Source of the DNA: Fusobacteriales bacterium | GTDB taxonomy: Bacteria; Fusobacteriota; Fusobacteriia; Fusobacteriales; Fusobacteriaceae | Assembly: GCA_020063625.1 (NCBI GenBank) | Contig: JAICDD010000004.1 | Span: 1-64,000, forward strand | Direction of reading: 5' to 3' | Length of the DNA: 64,000 nt | Shown: positions 2,260 to 51,672 of the stretch, piece after piece | How the letters are laid out: every line of letters starts with the position of its first letter | Position numbering within the stretch: the stretch's first letter is position 1 | The notes under the pieces: model-generated | The model's input: the letters and a program-made list of their open reading frames with translations, nothing else | The model's database searches: none | What the model was told of the DNA's origin: nothing | Translations under genes and position numbers: made by a program

Positions 2260-2295
2260 AGAAAGAGTCCTTTAAGTTAAAAGGACTCTTTTTTA
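2260..2295. terminator. bidirectional intrinsic terminator between convergent cheY-like and nhaC-like genes
   Basis: AAAGAGTCCTT-TAAGTTAA-AAGGACTCTTTTTT hairpin plus T-run; core resembles the inner hairpin of the dispersed palindromic repeat family. Confidence 0.85.
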
Positions 2296-4077: not shown

Positions 4078-4097
4078 AATTAAAATTAATATTTTTC

Positions 4098-4264
4098 CCG
4101 GATAGCTCATCACATAATTGTGACAGTGTTATAGATATTCTCTATAACCCCAATGTCAAGATTTTAGCATATCTTGCATTTCGGCAAAATTTCCTTTCAT
4201 TATACTTCACAGATTGCTAATCTCCATATAATTACTGATAAATTTTGCAGCCTCTATCTCTATT
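4098..4264 (-). promoter_or_regulatory. lysine riboswitch (L-box) aptamer
   Basis: Minus-strand landmarks in order: GATAGAGGCTGCAAA...CAGTAA...GGAGATTAG...GTGAAGTATAATGAAAGGAAATTTTGCCGAAATGC...ATTGGGGTTATAG...ACTGTCACAATTATGTGATGAGCTATC. Confidence 0.93.
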
Positions 4265-4486: not shown

Positions 4487-6535
4487 TTGAAGAGAAAGAA
4501 CAATAAAATTAATAAAAAAAAGAGAGAAAAAAAAGGAAATAAAAAGATTCAAAAAATAAGTGTCAAATTTAAAACAGTAATTTTAGTTGTGATAAGTATG
4601 ATAGTAATGTTTACTTATCTTTGTATTAATGATATTAAGAGGTTAGATGAGTCTAATAAAAGAAATCTTATTACATTAGCAAGTTTAAAAAATATTTCAC
4701 TAGATAATTATATTAATTCAAAGATAGAAAATAGTTCATTATTTTTAGAAAGTATAAATAAAAATTTAACTTTTGGAAAAGCAGTAAATGATACAGATAA
4801 TGAAGAGATAAAAAATATTACTCAAAGTGGATATTATCATTATAAAAATAGAATAGGAGTTGATAATTTTATTATTCTTGATACAAATAAAAATTTGTTA
4901 TTTTCATATAATAAGCCTAGAAAATCTCAAATAAATAATGAAATTATAAATGATAGTATAAAAAATAAAAAGAGTAATAGTGGTCTTATAATAGGTGATA
5001 GAGGAATTAAAATTTATACAACAACACCTATTATTTATATGGGGGATTTTTTAGGAATAGCAATTGTTGAAACAAAACTTGATATAACTGGAGTAAATAA
5101 TTTTATTAAAAAATTAGATAAAGATATTTTAAAAGGAGAGTATCAAGTATCTATTATTTATAGAAAAGAAGATAAAAATAAAATAGCAATATCAAATTTT
5201 GAAGCAGAGATAAAAGATAAGCAAGATATATATAATATAATAAAAAAAGAAAACCAGTATTTTAAAAAAGAAAATAATGATTTTTATGCATATTATTCAT
5301 TAAAAAATTATAATAATGAGATTATAGGATATAAAAAATACAAAATAAACATAAAAGATATTAATAATAAATTTAAAAAAGAGATAACTAATACTTTAAT
5401 ATTTTATTTACTAATTACTTTAATAGTTTCAATATTATTGACAATAATTATAAACAGAATAATTATTAAAAAATTAGAGATAATTTTTGATATAATAAAA
5501 AAAGTAGCAAATGGAAATCTTTCAGAAAAAGTAAAATTAAATTCTAATGATGAGATAGAGGATTTAGGAAATGAAATCAATAAAATGATTGATAAATTAA
5601 ATGAAATAATAAATAATCTAAAAAAAGATACAGTTGACCTAGAAAATGAATCAGAAAATTTAAAAGAAAATTCAGTGGAATTAAATAAAGAGACAGAGCT
5701 TATAAATGAAACAATAGAAAATATAACAGAAAGTTTTTTTGAAGTGTCAGATGCAACAGAAGAATTAAATGTAACAGTGGATAAAAATGCTGAAATTAAT
5801 GATTTTGTACTTGAAAATATAAATACAATTAAAGAGCAAAGTATAAATATAGAAAAATTAGCTAGTGAAAGTAATGATAGTATGGAGGATATAACTTTAT
5901 CAACACAAGAAGTAAAAGAAAAAATAGATGAGTCATCAATTTCAATAAATAAGTTATCAGAAGAGATAAATGAAATAATAGAAGTAATATCAAAAATAAC
6001 CGATATTTCAAATAAAACAAATTTATTAGCATTAAATGCAGCAATAGAAGCAGCAAGAGCAGGAGAAGCAGGAAAAGGATTTAGTGTAGTAGCAGAAGAG
6101 GTAAAAAAATTATCAATAGAAACAGGTGGATTTGTAAAAGAGGTAGAAGAACTTTTAATTGATATACAAAAAAATATGAAGATTATAGAAAAAGATATGG
6201 AAATAGAAAAAGAAAGAACAGAAAACAATATAGAGATAGTGAATAAAACAAAAAACAAATTTACTAATGTAAAGATTGAAATAGAAGATATAACATTAAA
6301 AATTAATAATATTACAGAAAAAATAAATGAACAAGTAGAAAGTTTTAATAAAATTGAATCAGGAATAAAATCAATTTCAACTTCAAATGAAATGTTGAAA
6401 GAAAAAACAGAAGAATTATCAGAAATATCAAAAAATAATTTTAATATAACTCAAAATGTACAAAAAATCTCAGATGAATTAAATGAAAAATCCAATAAAA
6501 TAGCAGAGATGATAGGATATTTTAATAAAAATTAG
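4487..6535 (+). CDS. methyl-accepting chemotaxis protein
   Basis: Signalling hairpin [33 protein letters not shown]; two TM segments around a ~260 aa sensor region; HAMP. TTG start at 4487, 8 nt after GAAAGGAG, preferred over ORF start 4442. Confidence 0.9.
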
Positions 6536-6564
6536 CACTCAAAAAAAAGAGTGCTAATTTTTTT
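6527..6564 (+). terminator. MCP terminator that contains a CIRCE-like inverted repeat
   Basis: AAAAATTAGCACTC-A8-GAGTGCTAATTTTTTTTT: 14-bp stem then T-run; arms identical to CIRCE arms, spacer 8 nt instead of 9. Confidence 0.85.
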
Positions 6565-10483: not shown

Positions 10484-10554
10484 CTGGGAGACCAAAAAGT
10501 TAATTTCTATAAAAAATTTTTAATTGATTTTTTAGAGATACTTTTGGTCACCCT
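10484..10554. repeat. dispersed palindromic repeat copy A (short form)
   Basis: GGGAGACCAAAAAGT...ACTTTTGGTCACCC terminal inverted repeat; no inner ACGAGTCC hairpin. Confidence 0.75.
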
Positions 10555-13118: not shown

Positions 13119-13128
13119 AAATAATTTA

Positions 13129-13230
13129 GATAACCGAAAAGTTACTTTCATCATATAAATTAAAAACGAACTCTTTAAAATTAAGAGTTCGTTTAATTAA
13201 TTTATATTTTAGTGTTCTTTTTCAGTTATC
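13129..13230. repeat. dispersed palindromic repeat copy B
   Basis: GATAACCGAAAAGTTA...AAACGAACTCTTTAAAATTAAGAGTTCGTTT...CTTTTTCAGTTATC; starts 10 nt after dnaJ stop. Confidence 0.85.
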
Positions 13231-13305
13231 TTTAAATTATATTTGAAAAAAAAAAGTTACTGTGATATACTTTTTTATGAGTAAAATATATTATAGGAGG
13301 AAATT

Positions 13306-13624: not shown

Positions 13625-13729
13625 TGGGAGACTGAAAAGATAAGTTTTATTGAATAAATTAGAAAAGGACTCTTTAAAATTAAGAACTTTTTAAACTGAT
13701 TTATTTTAAACTGTACTTTTCAGTCACCT
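13625..13729. repeat. dispersed palindromic repeat copy C
   Basis: GGGAGACTGAAAAG...AAAGGACTCTTTAAAATTAAGAACTTTTT...CTTTTCAGTCACC followed by T8; 5 nt after yajC stop. Confidence 0.88.
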
Positions 13730-16703: not shown

Positions 16704-16746
16704 AAAACGGACCGAAAACAAGTTTATTAATAATTTCGGTCTGTTA
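16704..16746. terminator. hairpin after the TPR gene, possible minimal relative of the palindromic repeat family
   Basis: AACGGACCGAAA-ACAAGTTTATTAATAA-TTTCGGTCTGTT. Confidence 0.65.
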
Positions 16747-19491: not shown

Positions 19492-19798
19492 GAATGGTTA
19501 ACATTAAAAAACCTAAAAAAGCAGGATTATTTGGAGCTAGAGAAGGAGTAACTTCTTTTTTTAAGTTGTTGATAAAATCTCTATATTTAGAGTAAAATTC
19601 ATAACTAGGTTTAGAATTATATTTTATATCTTCAACTTCAAAATAATTAAGAATAGATTTTGTTGTTGTAGGTTTAATTAATAAATCCTTTTCAAGATTA
19701 TGTTTTTTAGATACTTTAATCATTTCAGGGTCATTAAAACCTTCAGGATAAGTTTCAAAGAATTTTTCTTCTAAATTTTTTATTTTTTTGTTATTCAT
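19481..19798 (-). CDS. hypothetical protein, 105 aa
   Basis: ATG with upstream GGAGGTG on minus strand; ends in the shared terminator. Confidence 0.6.
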   Translation of the reverse strand: MNNKKIKNLEEKFFETYPEGFNDPEMIKVSKKHNLEKDLLIKPTTTKSILNYFEVEDIKYNSKPSYEFYSKYRDFINNLKKEVTPSLAPNNPAFLGFLMLTIPKK

Positions 19799-19874
19799 AA
19801 TACACCTCCACAGTTTAATATTAATATTATTTAGGGTAAAAAATCAAGTTTGAGATAAATAAAATTATTAAAAT

Positions 19875-23772: not shown

Positions 23773-23784
23773 ATAAAAAAAGAA

Positions 23785-23832
23785 AGACCGGAAAGCTAAA
23801 TTTTATTAAATAAATTAAGCTTTTTGGTCTTT
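23785..23832. repeat. palindromic repeat copy E (truncated), acting as terminator between convergent genes
   Basis: AGACCGGAAAGCTAAATTTTATTAAATAAATTAAGCTTTTTGGTCTTTTT. Confidence 0.7.
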
Positions 23833-23838
23833 TTAGTT

Positions 23839-25365
23839 TTATAACTTTATTTTTAAATATATTTTCTTTTCATTAGTTAAAGTTAGATGTTTTTTATAAT
23901 TATAATCTGGAATTGAAATGTCAATAGAATTAATATTTTCTTCAATATCTAAATAAATTAAACTATTACTATCAGGAATATATTTTTTGTTGTTAATATA
24001 AACAGGTTTATAAAATTTTTCAGGAAACTCTAGAATTAGTTTTTTATAGTTATAATTATAAAAAATATCAAATTCTTCATCAGATTCATTAATTAAAAAT
24101 ATATCTTTAGAAGTATAAATATTTCTATCTAGAGAATCTTTGATAATAATTTTATATGATTCAAAAAGAGGTAAACTTTCAAAAATGTAAAACCCGTTTT
24201 TACTAGTAGTTGTAGTAGCAATATGTTTATTATTTTGATATAAAAATAGATTTACATTACTAGCATATTCAGAATTTGCAATAACTCTACCTTTTAGATT
24301 AGTTAGTTTTTTAGCTAGTTTTATATAAATGTTTTCAATAGATGAATAATTTTTAATATTTTTAACAATTCCATTAGTTAAATATCCACTTTTTGTTACT
24401 TTTAATACATTAATCCCTGATGTTACTTTTACTTTAAAAAATCCTTTATCATTAGAGTAAATAGAAAAAGAATCAATATTATTATTTACTTCTATAAATG
24501 CATTGCTAATAGGATTATTTTTTTCATCAATAATATATCCTGAGATATATCCACCTAGTTCTTTTAAAGAAATTTCTAAATTATTAATATTATTTGTTAA
24601 TGATAGCTTTGTATTAGTTGTATCATAACCAATTTTTTCAATAGAAACATTATAATCATTTTTAGGAAGTTTTATATTAAAATTTCCTGTTATATCTGAA
24701 TATGTTTCAAAATTGTTATTATTAATATCAGTAAAAGTTATTTTAGCACCACCAATAAAATAATCATTTGATTTAACAATACCTTTAACTGAAAACTCCT
24801 CTTTTTTTATTGTAAAGAGTAAAAAAGATTTAGTTTTATCATTGATAACAATATTTTTATAAATAGTAGAGTTATAAGAATTAATAATTTCTACATTATA
24901 TACATTTGGTAATATATCAATATTAATAGGGGAATTATGATAATCAAAACTATAAACTAATTTTTCATTATTATAAAAATTAATAATACTATTAAATGAA
25001 AAATTATTTAAAATAACATTATCTAAAAAATAATAGTTATTAGTGTTGTCATATTTTAACCCTATAAATAATTTTTTTGTGTTTGTATTTTTTTTATTAA
25101 GCATTATATTTATATTTTGGGTATCACTTGAAACAAATATTTTTTTTGTTAGATATCCATTTTTTGAAATAGAAATAAAAAAAGAATCATTTGGAATATC
25201 TAATTTTAAGTATCCTTTTGAGTCTGTTAAATAACTATTAGTATTAACAATAATATTTGCAGAAGGGATAGGTGAATAATTTTCATTAAAAATATAAATA
25301 TTATATTCTTTTGCAAATAAAAAAATATTTATTATAAAAAAGAGGATAAAAATAAATTTTTTCAT
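23839..25365 (-). CDS. secreted multi-domain protein with carboxypeptidase-regulatory-like / PEGA-like beta-sandwich repeats
   Basis: Signal peptide and repeated GYISGYIIDEKNNPISNAFIEVNN..YSNDKGFFKVKVTSGINVLKVTKSGY units. Confidence 0.75.
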   Translation of the reverse strand: MKKFIFILFFIINIFLFAKEYNIYIFNENYSPIPSANIIVNTNSYLTDSKGYLKLDIPNDSFFISISKNGYLTKKIFVSSDTQNINIMLNKKNTNTKKLFIGLKYDNTNNYYFLDNVILNNFSFNSIINFYNNEKLVYSFDYHNSPINIDILPNVYNVEIINSYNSTIYKNIVINDKTKSFLLFTIKKEEFSVKGIVKSNDYFIGGAKITFTDINNNNFETYSDITGNFNIKLPKNDYNVSIEKIGYDTTNTKLSLTNNINNLEISLKELGGYISGYIIDEKNNPISNAFIEVNNNIDSFSIYSNDKGFFKVKVTSGINVLKVTKSGYLTNGIVKNIKNYSSIENIYIKLAKKLTNLKGRVIANSEYASNVNLFLYQNNKHIATTTTSKNGFYIFESLPLFESYKIIIKDSLDRNIYTSKDIFLINESDEEFDIFYNYNYKKLILEFPEKFYKPVYINNKKYIPDSNSLIYLDIEENINSIDISIPDYNYKKHLTLTNEKKIYLKIKL

Positions 25366-25467: not shown

Positions 25468-27813
25468 ATGAAGGTGAGTATAAAAAGTAAATTTTCGATA
25501 ATTATTATTTTTACTAGTATTTTATCGCTAATTTTTGCTTATTTAATTTCTAGTGAAATTATATATAGAAATTTAGAACAAGAAAATATAGCTAAAATAG
25601 AAGAAAAAATAAATTATATACAGTATGAACTATATGAGTTTAAAGAAAATTTTAGACGTGAAACAGAGATGATGTCTAAAAATATAGATCTTATTAGATT
25701 ATTAAACAAGGCAGATATTGGATATAATGTAAAAAAAGGAGAGTATAATAATCTTTATAATTATTATAATGCTCTTACAAGTAATTATAGAGGATTTGAT
25801 ATAGCTATATATAGTAGCAGAGGGGACAGAATATTTAATAAAGGATTTAAAGAGGATGAGAAAATAGACTTTACAGAAGAAGGAATAAGATATAAAAAAT
25901 TAGGAAATGAGATATACATATATTCAATTATATCTATAAACATGAATAAATATATGGGAACAATTGTATACAGGTATAAAATATCAGAAAAAGAGATAAA
26001 TAGATATAAAAATATATTTGTAACAGAAGTAATTTTACTAGACAAAAATAAAATATTAAAAGGAACATTAGGAAATGATATTGTTCTTCAATTTAGAAAA
26101 GATAATTATTTAGAGATTGGAGAAAAAATATATTTTTATAAAATGATAGATATAGAAAATATAGATGATTTAAGTTGGTTATTTCTTTTTGATGTAACAA
26201 AATTATTTAGTGATATACAAAAAATAACTAGCTATCTTTTTATTGCTATGTTTTTAGTGTTTTCACTTATATTTTTAATATCTACAACAATGTTAAATAT
26301 TGTTGTAGATTCAATAAAAGAATTAATAAATAAAATAAATTCTTTAAAAGAGGGGAATCTAGATATTAATCTTGGAAAGCTAAAAGCTTCTGGAGATGAA
26401 ATTGGTATACTTGCTAGAGATTTTGAAGCAATGACAATTACTCTTCGTGATAAAATAAATGAGTTAGAGGAAGCAAATAATAATAATAAACATTATTCTC
26501 AAAGATTAGAACTTATGAATAAAGAGATGAAAGAAACTCAAAAGAAAATGCAAGAAAAAAATGAGAATATTGATAGAATAAATAAATTATTAAATAGTAG
26601 AATATCAGAAATTACAAATATATATTATTTAATTATAAATATTTCAAAATATATTATAGATGATAATTTTTATGAGATTGTAATTAAGGGAATTAGAGAA
26701 GGACTTATTCTTAGAAAAGTAGCTATTTATACAGTAAAAGAAGAAAGTAAAACTATAGTGTTAACAAAAAGTCTAGGAATAGGGGAAGCTCCAAAAGTTT
26801 TAGATATTTGGGATTATATTGATTATATGAAAAAACGAGATATATTACAAGCAAATGATATTATAGATTTATCTTATTATAAAGAGTTTAGAGAGCCATA
26901 TATCTTACCATTATTTAGTGAAAAAAGTGAATCTAAAGATTTATATGGAGTATTATTAATAGATAATGGAGATAAATTACAGCAAGAAACAAAAAAATCA
27001 CTTATTACATATGTAAAAACAATATTATTAGCTCTTGAAAATAGAAAATTATACTTAAAACTTATAAAAGAAAATCAAAAATTAGAAGAGGCTACAAAAG
27101 AGCTTCAAAAATCAGAAAAAACAAAAAATGTATTTATGGCAAATGTAAGTCATGAATTAAAAATTCCTCTTGTACCAATAAAAGGATATACAGAACTTTT
27201 ACTTGCTGGTAAAATAGGAAAATTAACAATAAAACAGAGAAAAGCTTTAAAAACTTCATTAAATAATATAGAAAGATTACAAGAAATAATAGAAAATATC
27301 ATTAGTTATAGTCGTATAGAAAGTGGAAAATATGAACTTCTAAATACTAAATTATATTTAACAGATGTAATAGAAGAAGTGTTAATGAGATTAGAAAATG
27401 TAATAGAAGAAGATAGAGTAATAATAAGAAAAAATTACAAAGTAGAAGAACCAGTTATATATGGAGACCAAGAAGCAATAAAACAAATATTTGTAAATCT
27501 TATATCAAACTCTTTAAAATTTTCTAAAAAGGATAGATTGATAATAGATATAACAATAAGTGAAGAAGAAAAAAAATATAAAATTAGCTTAAAAGATAAT
27601 GGTATGGGAATGGCAAAAGATAAAGTAAAAGAGATATTAAAAAGTTTTAGACAGTTAGAAGAGGGAAATACTAGAAAATATAGAGGATTAGGATTAGGAC
27701 TTACAGTAGTAGACAAAATTCTTTCAACATATAATGAAAAAATAAATATTATAAGTGAAATTAATAATGGAACAGAAGTGTATTTTTATTTTAAGAAATA
27801 TACAGAAGAATAG
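25468..27813 (+). CDS. membrane sensor histidine kinase (sensor, HAMP, GAF-like, HisKA, HATPase_c)
   Basis: HAMP DIGILARDFEAMTITLRDKI; H-box NVSHELKIPLVPIKGY; NLISNSLKFSK; DNGMGMAKDK; GLGLGLTVVDKI. Confidence 0.9.
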   Translation: MKVSIKSKFSIIIIFTSILSLIFAYLISSEIIYRNLEQENIAKIEEKINYIQYELYEFKENFRRETEMMSKNIDLIRLLNKADIGYNVKKGEYNNLYNYYNALTSNYRGFDIAIYSSRGDRIFNKGFKEDEKIDFTEEGIRYKKLGNEIYIYSIISINMNKYMGTIVYRYKISEKEINRYKNIFVTEVILLDKNKILKGTLGNDIVLQFRKDNYLEIGEKIYFYKMIDIENIDDLSWLFLFDVTKLFSDIQKITSYLFIAMFLVFSLIFLISTTMLNIVVDSIKELINKINSLKEGNLDINLGKLKASGDEIGILARDFEAMTITLRDKINELEEANNNNKHYSQRLELMNKEMKETQKKMQEKNENIDRINKLLNSRISEITNIYYLIINISKYIIDDNFYEIVIKGIREGLILRKVAIYTVKEESKTIVLTKSLGIGEAPKVLDIWDYIDYMKKRDILQANDIIDLSYYKEFREPYILPLFSEKSESKDLYGVLLIDNGDKLQQETKKSLITYVKTILLALENRKLYLKLIKENQKLEEATKELQKSEKTKNVFMANVSHELKIPLVPIKGYTELLLAGKIGKLTIKQRKALKTSLNNIERLQEIIENIISYSRIESGKYELLNTKLYLTDVIEEVLMRLENVIEEDRVIIRKNYKVEEPVIYGDQEAIKQIFVNLISNSLKFSKKDRLIIDITISEEEKKYKISLKDNGMGMAKDKVKEILKSFRQLEEGNTRKYRGLGLGLTVVDKILSTYNEKINIISEINNGTEVYFYFKKYTEE

Positions 27814-27836
27814 AATATTTAAAAAATAATAAAAAT

Positions 27837-27921
27837 AAAATAACTAAACGAGTTCTTAAATTAAAGGGCTCGTTTTTAAATTATTTAACAGAAATTAGAT
27901 TTTCAGTCTCCTAGTTATTTT
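27837..27921. repeat. dispersed palindromic repeat copy F (left arm shortened)
   Basis: AAACGAGTTCTTAAATTAAAGGGCTCGTTT inner hairpin and right arm ATTTTCAGTCTCC. Confidence 0.75.
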
Positions 27922-38204: not shown

Positions 38205-38310
38205 TAAAAGAATTAAAGATATTAATTTTAGTAAATAAATTAAAAACGAATCCTTTAAAATTAAGGACTCGTACAATTAATTTGTTTTAATGATATATTT
38301 CAATAACCTT
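38205..38310. repeat. dispersed palindromic repeat copy G
   Basis: Inner hairpin AAACGAATCCTTTAAAATTAAGGACTCGT; right end TTTCAATAACC; outer left arm degenerate. Confidence 0.75.
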
Positions 38311-48714: not shown

Positions 48715-51024
48715 ATGAAGAAAGCAGCATTTATACCAACAAGAGATTTGATAGTTTTCCCTGGAATAATAACACCTGTTTTTGTAGGAAGAGATAAAAG
48801 TGTAGCAACACTTGAAAAAGCTCTTATAGATGATAATACTTTAATACTTTGTATGCAAAAAGATGCAAAGAAAGAAAATCCAAAATTACCTAATGATATA
48901 TATGATGTAGGTGTACTTGTAAATGTATTACAAACTTTAAAAATGCCTAATGGAAATATAAAAGTATTAGTTGAAGCAAAAAATAGAGTTAAAATAAATA
49001 ATATAGTAGTTGAAGAGGGGGCTTATTTTGCAGAATATGAAGAATTATATTCAGAGAAAATAAGTGAAGAGGAACAAGAAGCATTAAAAAGAAAAGTATT
49101 AGAAAATTTTGAAAAATATGCTAAACTTACAGGAAAAATATTACCAGATTTAATTATAAATTTACAAGGATTAAAAAATCTTGATAAAATATTAGATTTA
49201 ATAACATCTAACTTACAAATTTCAAATGAAAAAAAACAAACTTTATTAGAAGTAGTTAATATAGAAGAAAGAGCATATGAATTATTAGAAAGAATTAATC
49301 AGGAAGTGCAAATAGTAGGGATAGAAAAGCAAATAGATAATAAAGTAAAAGAAAAAATGAATGAAGTACAAAGAAATTACTATCTAAAAGAAAAAATAAG
49401 TGCTCTTAAAGAAGAACTTGGAGAAAGTGCAAATGAAAGTGATGAAGTAGCTGAATTTAGAAAAAAAGTAAAAAATTCTAAACTACCTAAAATAGTAAAA
49501 GATAAATTAGATAAAGAATTAGATAGATTTGCTAAAATGCCGTCATTTTCATCAGAAGCATCAGTAATAAGAAGCTATATAGAAACTCTTTTAGATTTAC
49601 CATGGAGTAAAACTACAAAAGAGATATTAGATATACAAAAAGCTTCTAAAATACTAGAAGAAGATCACTATGGATTAAAAACTGTAAAAGAAAGAATTTT
49701 AGAATTTTTAGCAGTTAAAAAATTAAATCCAAATATGAAAGGCTCTATTCTTTGTCTTGTGGGACCTCCAGGAGTAGGGAAAACTTCATTGGCAAACTCA
49801 ATAGCAAGAGCATTAAATAGAAAATTTGTTAGAATATCACTTGGTGGAGTGAGAGATGAAGCTGAAATTAGAGGTCATAGAAGAACATATATAGGAGCTA
49901 TGCCTGGTAGAATAATAAAAGGAATAAAAGAAGCGGGAAGTAAAAATCCATTAATGCTTTTAGATGAAATAGATAAAATGGCTACAGATTTTAGAGGAGA
50001 CCCAGCCTCTGCAATGTTAGAAGTACTTGATCCAGCTCAAAATATTCATTTTGAAGACCATTATGTAGATACACCATTTGATTTATCAGAAGTATTCTTT
50101 ATAGCAACAGCAAATGATTTAGGAAGAATACCTATGCCTCTTAGAGATAGAATGGAAATTATTAATCTTAGCTCATATACAGAATTTGAAAAAAAACATA
50201 TAGCTAAGAAATATTTAATACCAGCATCTAAAGAAGAAAATGGATTAAAAGATATAAATGTAAAAATTTCTGATGAAGCACTTAAAAGAATTATAAATGA
50301 CTATACAAAAGAAGCAGGAGTAAGAAATCTAAAAAGAGAAATAAATAAGCTTTTTAGAAGAGTAGCAAAAGAAGTAATAGATAAAGATAAGAAAAATATA
50401 ATTATTAATATAAATAATATACAAAAATATTTAGATAAACCTAGATTTAGACCTGATAAACAAAAATCAAAAGAATCTAGAGTAGGAATAGTAAATGGAC
50501 TTGCATGGACAGCTGTGGGAGGAACAGCACTTGAAGTACAAGCTATAAAAATGGAAGGTAAGGGTAAATTAACATTAACAGGTAAGCTTGGAGATGTAAT
50601 GAAAGAATCAGCACAAGTAGCTTATTCATATGTAAGAGCTAAAAGAGAAGCTTACAAAATAGAAGAAAAATTTTATGAAAAATATGATTTACATTTACAT
50701 TTTCCAGAAGGTGCTGTACCAAAAGATGGACCATCAGCAGGAATCACAATAACTACTGCAATTATCTCAGCATTATCAAATAGACCTGTAAGACAAGATG
50801 TAGCTATGACCGGAGAAGTAACTATTACAGGTGATGTATTACCAGTAGGTGGAATAAAAGAAAAAGTTATAGGAGCTCATAGAATAGGAGTAACAGATGT
50901 TATACTTCCTATTGATAACGAACCTGACACAGAAGAACTACCTAAAGAAATAAAAAAAGATATAACTATTCATTTTGTAAAACATTATGATGAAGTAGAA
51001 AAAATAATCTTTGATAATAAATAA
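48715..51024 (+). CDS. lon: ATP-dependent protease Lon
   Basis: LVGPPGVGKTSLANSIA; catalytic PKDGPSAGITI; GGIKEKVIGAHR. Confidence 0.98.
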   Translation: MKKAAFIPTRDLIVFPGIITPVFVGRDKSVATLEKALIDDNTLILCMQKDAKKENPKLPNDIYDVGVLVNVLQTLKMPNGNIKVLVEAKNRVKINNIVVEEGAYFAEYEELYSEKISEEEQEALKRKVLENFEKYAKLTGKILPDLIINLQGLKNLDKILDLITSNLQISNEKKQTLLEVVNIEERAYELLERINQEVQIVGIEKQIDNKVKEKMNEVQRNYYLKEKISALKEELGESANESDEVAEFRKKVKNSKLPKIVKDKLDKELDRFAKMPSFSSEASVIRSYIETLLDLPWSKTTKEILDIQKASKILEEDHYGLKTVKERILEFLAVKKLNPNMKGSILCLVGPPGVGKTSLANSIARALNRKFVRISLGGVRDEAEIRGHRRTYIGAMPGRIIKGIKEAGSKNPLMLLDEIDKMATDFRGDPASAMLEVLDPAQNIHFEDHYVDTPFDLSEVFFIATANDLGRIPMPLRDRMEIINLSSYTEFEKKHIAKKYLIPASKEENGLKDINVKISDEALKRIINDYTKEAGVRNLKREINKLFRRVAKEVIDKDKKNIIININNIQKYLDKPRFRPDKQKSKESRVGIVNGLAWTAVGGTALEVQAIKMEGKGKLTLTGKLGDVMKESAQVAYSYVRAKREAYKIEEKFYEKYDLHLHFPEGAVPKDGPSAGITITTAIISALSNRPVRQDVAMTGEVTITGDVLPVGGIKEKVIGAHRIGVTDVILPIDNEPDTEELPKEIKKDITIHFVKHYDEVEKIIFDNK

Positions 51025-51025
51025 T

Positions 51026-51127
51026 TTGGAGAACGAAAAGTTAGTTTTGTTGAACCAACTAAAAACGAGTCCTTTAAAATTAAGGACTCGTTAAATTAAT
51101 TAAATTTTTAATAATACTTTTTGGTCT
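51026..51127. repeat. dispersed palindromic repeat copy H
   Basis: GGAGAACGAAAAGTTAG...AAAACGAGTCCTTTAAAATTAAGGACTCGTT...ACTTTTTGGTCTT; 1-2 nt after lon stop. Confidence 0.85.
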
Positions 51128-51144
51128 TAAAAGGGGGATGAAAT

Positions 51145-51627
51145 ATGCAAGAATTTAATGTGTTTGATAAAATTGGAAAACAATGGATGTTAATTAGTGC
51201 AAAGCAAGGAGAAAAAATTAATACTATGACTGCGTCATGGGGCGGTATGGGTGTTTTATGGAATAAAGAGGTAGTTTATATATTTGTTAGACCTCAAAGG
51301 TATACGAGAGAGTTTATAGATGCTAGTGATTATTTTACATTATCATTTTTTGATGAGGAATATAGAAAAGAGCTATCTTATCTTGGAAAAGTAAGTGGAA
51401 GAGATATAGATAAAATAAAAGAAACATCTCTTATTCCTGCAATAGAAGATGATAAAGTATATTTTGAGCAAGCAAATATGGTAATACATTGTAAAAAAAT
51501 ATATAGACAACACTTAACACCAGAATCAATTATAGATAAAAAAATAGAAGAGTTTTATGAAAATGACTATCACATAATGTATATTGGTGAGATTTTAGAG
51601 ATTATGGAGAGTTATACTGGAGAATAG
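51145..51627 (+). CDS. flavin reductase-like FMN-binding split-barrel protein
   Basis: NTMTASWGGMGVLWNKEVVYIFVRPQRYTREFIDASDYFTLSFF. Confidence 0.8.
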   Translation: MQEFNVFDKIGKQWMLISAKQGEKINTMTASWGGMGVLWNKEVVYIFVRPQRYTREFIDASDYFTLSFFDEEYRKELSYLGKVSGRDIDKIKETSLIPAIEDDKVYFEQANMVIHCKKIYRQHLTPESIIDKKIEEFYENDYHIMYIGEILEIMESYTGE

Positions 51628-51672
51628 AGAACTGGCAATGGGAAATAGTGAGAAGTGAGAAGAATTAAAATT

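Follow-up and report, generated by a model that had tools for sequence, protein, structure and literature searches.

What does a palindrome do that recurs in one bacterial intergenic gap after another, and how did it come to be there? The question is raised by the first 64,000 nucleotides of contig JAICDD010000004.1 in a draft assembly of a Fusobacteriales bacterium (GCA_020063625.1; this stretch is the window, and the genome is called the source genome below), where the gap between lon and a small open reading frame contains such a palindrome. A preliminary description of this DNA had placed it at 51026-51127, and a covariance model recovers it at 51027-51130. Our analysis suggests that it belongs to a lineage-specific repeat with about 80 copies, which probably acts as a Rho-independent terminator at many gene ends and displaced older terminators there. 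We favor this reading because the strongest signals are placement at 3' ends, orientation and covariation of the stems.

Copy number, placement and stem covariation

The repeat is a two-tier palindrome of about 105 bp, in which outer arms (GGGAGACTGAAAAGTTA and TACTTTTCAGTCTCCC) flank an inner hairpin (AACGAGTCCTTTAAAATTAAGGACTCGTT); its outer ends read GGGAGACTGAAAAG. The family consensus, GGGAGACTGAAAAGTTAATTTCTATTGAATAAATTAAAAACGAGTCCTTTAAAATTAAGGACTCGTTTAATTAATTTATTTTTTAGTGGTACTTTTCAGTCTCCC, was composed by eye from aligned copies and then served as search query. Folded as RNA, an outer stem of about 14 bp encloses an inner stem of about 11 bp. Copies take three forms: some keep both tiers, others the outer arms alone, and others the inner hairpin alone between degraded outer parts. 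Genome-wide work consisted of searches and of the stretches around copies. The covariance model was built from 15 copies with the inner stem as its only structure; E-values from it are approximate. The draft genome, 1.79 Mb in 56 contigs and 93.6% complete, yielded 130 matches at E<=1, partly the two strands of one palindrome, from which 82 distinct places were kept. Given these places and RNA folding z-scores of -2.5 to -8.5 at seven sites, the repeat family is confirmed as real, far past chance expectation. The high-copy dispersed family that the preliminary description had proposed from the window, with a covariance model and a genome-wide count as the check, thus extends to further copies, about 80 in all.

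The copies are found at the ends of genes. The 82 places comprise 47 co-directional, 28 convergent and 2 divergent contexts, with five unclassed (p 9e-7), and the match starts within -35 to 60 nt of the upstream stop codon in 65 of 75. Among inner-hairpin-only copies, the strand with the U-rich GUUUUUAAUUU tail is the transcribed one in 25 of 26 co-directional cases (p 8e-7), and the T-run is 5.1 on this strand versus 2.85 on the opposite strand. By folding, orientation and T-run, family copies present, on the transcribed strand, a stable hairpin with a U-tract behind it.

The stems also covary. Across 22 copies, 8 of the 14 outer-arm pairs have changes on both sides; the outer stem has 27 double-change cells versus 10.0+-2.5 in shuffles, and 90% of its cells are paired versus at most 57% if the arms are slid against each other. 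In the inner stem, read on the transcribed strand, G.U pairs outnumber A.C mismatches 30 to 6, or 20 to 6 minus the commonest variant, although shared descent of the copies inflates these counts and the outer-stem covariation alike. We propose that the stems are under selection, and that parts of the repeat that are not needed decay.

Terminator hairpins in a syntenic sister species

A sister species of the same genus (G001) is syntenic throughout the window, with 87-91% identity. At each of the nine window sites of the family another hairpin stands in G001, in most cases a plain intrinsic terminator; by contrast, 7 of 8 comparable other intergenic terminator-like stems are 97-100% identical. 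Conservation of terminator stems is thus 0/9 for the family versus 7/8 for the others (Fisher p 4e-4), or 5/6 for the others once a CIRCE-like operator and a hairpin adjacent to a lysine riboswitch are set aside (Fisher p 2e-3). Further sites on contigs C2 and C39 agree, again with different hairpins in the sister species. At the 13626 site the hairpin stem differs from that of the sister, but the downstream TTTTTAGATAAAGGGG, which covers the T-tract and beyond, is identical; the hairpin therefore appears to have been swapped. We infer that the terminator change happened in the lineage of the source genome.

In the course of events that we envision, a short palindromic repeat would have multiplied to about 80 copies within the lineage of one species. 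Its inner hairpin, on the strand with the GUUUUUAAUUU tail, would resemble a standard intrinsic terminator, and the outer stem with an adjoining T-tract would resemble a second one. Copies would have displaced older, unrelated terminators, and selection on the stems would retain them while unneeded parts decay. Spread could have occurred by mobilisation of the element in trans or by recombination between terminators.

Several points weigh against this scenario. Termination, as the putative function of the repeat, is read from sequence. The G.U asymmetry of the outer stem is weak (15 versus 9), and outer-arm copies in co-directional contexts comprise 11 plus and 4 minus cases, so they are not orientation-selected as the inner-only copies are. 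The context counts are limited by the draft state of the genome and by a simple ORF (open reading frame) caller; p-values that assume independence are too small, since copies share ancestry. Finally, one same-genus genome was compared, and the derived state was assigned by parsimony.

The covariance model places seven strong and two weaker members in the window (Table 1) and a further copy at 65485, just past its end. The sites first listed at 10484, 13129, 13625, 27837, 38205, 51026 and 52986 are the strong members, and those at 23785 and 2260 are weaker ones; the supposed truncated form at 16704 dropped out, as the sister species has the same stem at 97% identity and lacks the family there. 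In the copy next to lon (48715-51024), the inner hairpin at 51064-51092 matches the consensus perfectly and the outer arms are worn (GGAGAACGAAAAGTTA / ACTTTTTGGTCTTAA); the small ORF beyond it spans 51145-51627.

Table 1. Sites of the repeat family and one excluded terminator, in window coordinates
Feature	Position	Strand	Evidence or remark
Outer-arms-only copy, downstream of conserved dnaK terminator	10486..10553	+	Covariance-model match, sister comparison, folding
Two-tier copy, dnaJ / yajC gap	13127..13231	+	Covariance-model match; folding z -8.5; other hairpin in sister species
Two-tier copy, yajC / amidase gene gap	13626..13729	+	Covariance-model match; T-tract after outer stem; folding, sister comparison
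Intact inner hairpin and one outer arm, 3' of histidine kinase gene	27813..27912	-	Covariance-model match, sister comparison, folding
Inner-hairpin-only copy, between two minus-strand ORFs	38207..38309	+	Covariance-model match; U-tract on transcribed strand
Two-tier copy, lon / small ORF gap	51027..51130	+	Covariance-model match; G001 hairpin here differs (GGGTGGC..GTCGCCC)
Outer arms with shortened interior, 3' of engB	52989..53073	-	Covariance-model match; folding z -6.6
Weaker member: internally deleted outer-arm copy, terminator-like hairpin	23782..23842	+	E 0.061; unconserved in sister species
Weaker, probable member: inner-hairpin-like terminator	2262..2291	-	Model match 2230-2329, E 0.034
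Not a member: ordinary terminator kept in sister species	16706..16745	-	Stem identity 0.97

Other features of the window were seen along the way. A non-family terminator at 57631-57669 likewise differs from the sister species. A block of about 750 bp of short degenerate repeats (CACGAAGARCACAAAGRAAAAG, ACCACGGGATT) at 51628-52375 is absent from that position in the sister, and about 350 bp at 19520-19869, overlapping a small minus-strand ORF, are missing from it. The CIRCE-like operator (AATTAGCACTC-N8-GAGTGCTAATT) lies at 6530-6559, ahead of the dnaK/dnaJ cluster, and the lysine riboswitch occupies 4095-4264 on the minus strand.

Age and mode of spread

None of 60 relatives, the sister species included, was matched by the model at E<=0.01, and 98 other genomes of the phylum gave zero matches at E<=0.001, both under stricter filters by which weak matches are lost. 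Plasmids, phages and IMG/VR contained no family match. Once the threshold was loosened, the sister gave four weak matches, one of which, at C9:74105, is a true palindrome of outer arms; it lies between leuS and proB, genes named from their translations, without family search. The source genome has this palindrome at the same site (C36:12351-12439), diverged and with a different interior, and it is the copy shared between orthologous loci. The outer palindrome is therefore older than the split of the two species, and expansion of the family appears confined to the source-genome lineage. Pairwise divergence between the linkers of copies is 0.20, in AT-rich sequence that may be part-saturated, and lies below the four-fold-site divergence of 0.255 (25.5%) between the two species, consistent with the family having expanded at about the time of the split or later.

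The shared palindrome could also mean that the family is ancestral and widespread and was then lost by the sister species, and some sister stems do finish in similar G-runs (C2:10871, 52989). We consider this improbable: the other compared sites have no recognisable remnants, though the shared copy is still recognisable, the other 97 genomes have no match, and copies diverge less from one another than the two species do at four-fold sites.

How the copies moved is a separate question. The preliminary description called the family MITE/REP-like, after miniature inverted-repeat transposable elements (MITEs) and repetitive extragenic palindromes (REPs). This label is partly supported, and the terminal inverted repeats are indeed present. 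The checks it had suggested gave no target-site duplication (flank k-mers shared across 23 copies that keep both ends were no better than in shuffled pairs) and no convincing inverted pair of family ends at transposon spacing among the arm matches, judged by eye in the 56-contig draft. A Y1 (REP-type) transposase (PF01797) had 0 matches in the source and sister genomes, with 5 of 14 control genomes positive. Two arm matches at C7:65817/66672, each with two mismatches, form a weak inverted pair with a spacing of 855 bp; they were not counted as an autonomous parent, because 66672 is an end of an ordinary family copy.

A classical MITE would be transposase-derived, would depend on a DDE-type transposase acting in trans, and would merely be tolerated after genes. 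The copies are small, numerous, AT-rich and intergenic and have long terminal inverted repeats, all of which suits this explanation, and purifying selection would equally give avoidance of divergent regions. Against it stand the lack of duplications in the 23 copies and of a convincing end pair among the arm matches, hairpins that seem replaced, not interrupted, at several sites relative to the sister, and covariation and U-tract orientation beyond mere tolerance. It is possible but rather doubtful. Alternatively, with no dedicated mobility, ectopic recombination, gene conversion or template switching between hairpins could have homogenised existing terminators. The hairpin changed with T-tract and flanks retained at 13626, 52989 and C2:10871, inner-only copies fit tight convergent gaps, and the lack of target duplications and of a Y1 transposase agrees with such a process. 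However, at many sites no sequence that could guide recombination is visibly shared, the sister has no such family in the approximately 95 kb compared, and copying took in whole 105-bp units, linkers included, which leaves this route a minority possibility. Our own suggestion for how a terminator repeat might spread is tentative: it may swap existing intrinsic-terminator hairpins while T-tract and flanks are kept, so that one hairpin sequence would take over many gene ends of a genome within the lifetime of one species, with neither target duplications nor a classical transposase.

Paired DNA uptake sequences form terminators in Neisseria and Haemophilus, as cited in PMC3049150 and PMC2267715, and a similar origin could be envisioned here. 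Single arms are not in excess outside paired copies in about 97 kb (ACGAGTC 0, CGAGTCC 0, AACGAGTC 0, CTGAAAAG 1), which contradicts this origin and makes it extremely improbable.

Relation to described repeats

The family is unnamed in Rfam, whose sole match in the window is the lysine riboswitch, and in the literature searched, as the first description had supposed. Like the family, REPs with Y1 (RAYT) transposases are high-copy extragenic palindromes, but they are 20-40 bp long and mostly GTAG- or CGTC-tagged (PMC3733652, PMC2817692), and the source and sister genomes are without a Y1 transposase. YPAL/RU-2 of Yersinia shares with the family the existence of filled and empty sites; it targets dyad symmetry and, unlike the family copies, is 168 bp, not AT-rich, has internal inverted repeats and leaves target duplications of 3-26 bp (PMC2229807).

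The closest described counterpart, compared by description, is the pneumococcal SPRITE repeat, which the family resembles. In PMC3049150, SPRITE is terminator-like, interspersed and AT-rich, with a hairpin and U-rich tract near the 3' ends of coding sequences and enrichment between convergent genes; co-option as a terminator is proposed, the repeat is nearly confined to one species group, and duplication is not established. SPRITE as described there consists of one 18-bp duplex that ends in AAAA/TTTT, and no empty site was found for comparison; in our family one stem is nested within another, the stems covary, and a syntenic sister genome has other terminators at the same sites. Repeats are often suggested as terminators, and comparable repeat-free sites are rarely available; here the sister presents the alternative at the same gene ends, and terminator replacement by a repeat thus becomes directly testable.
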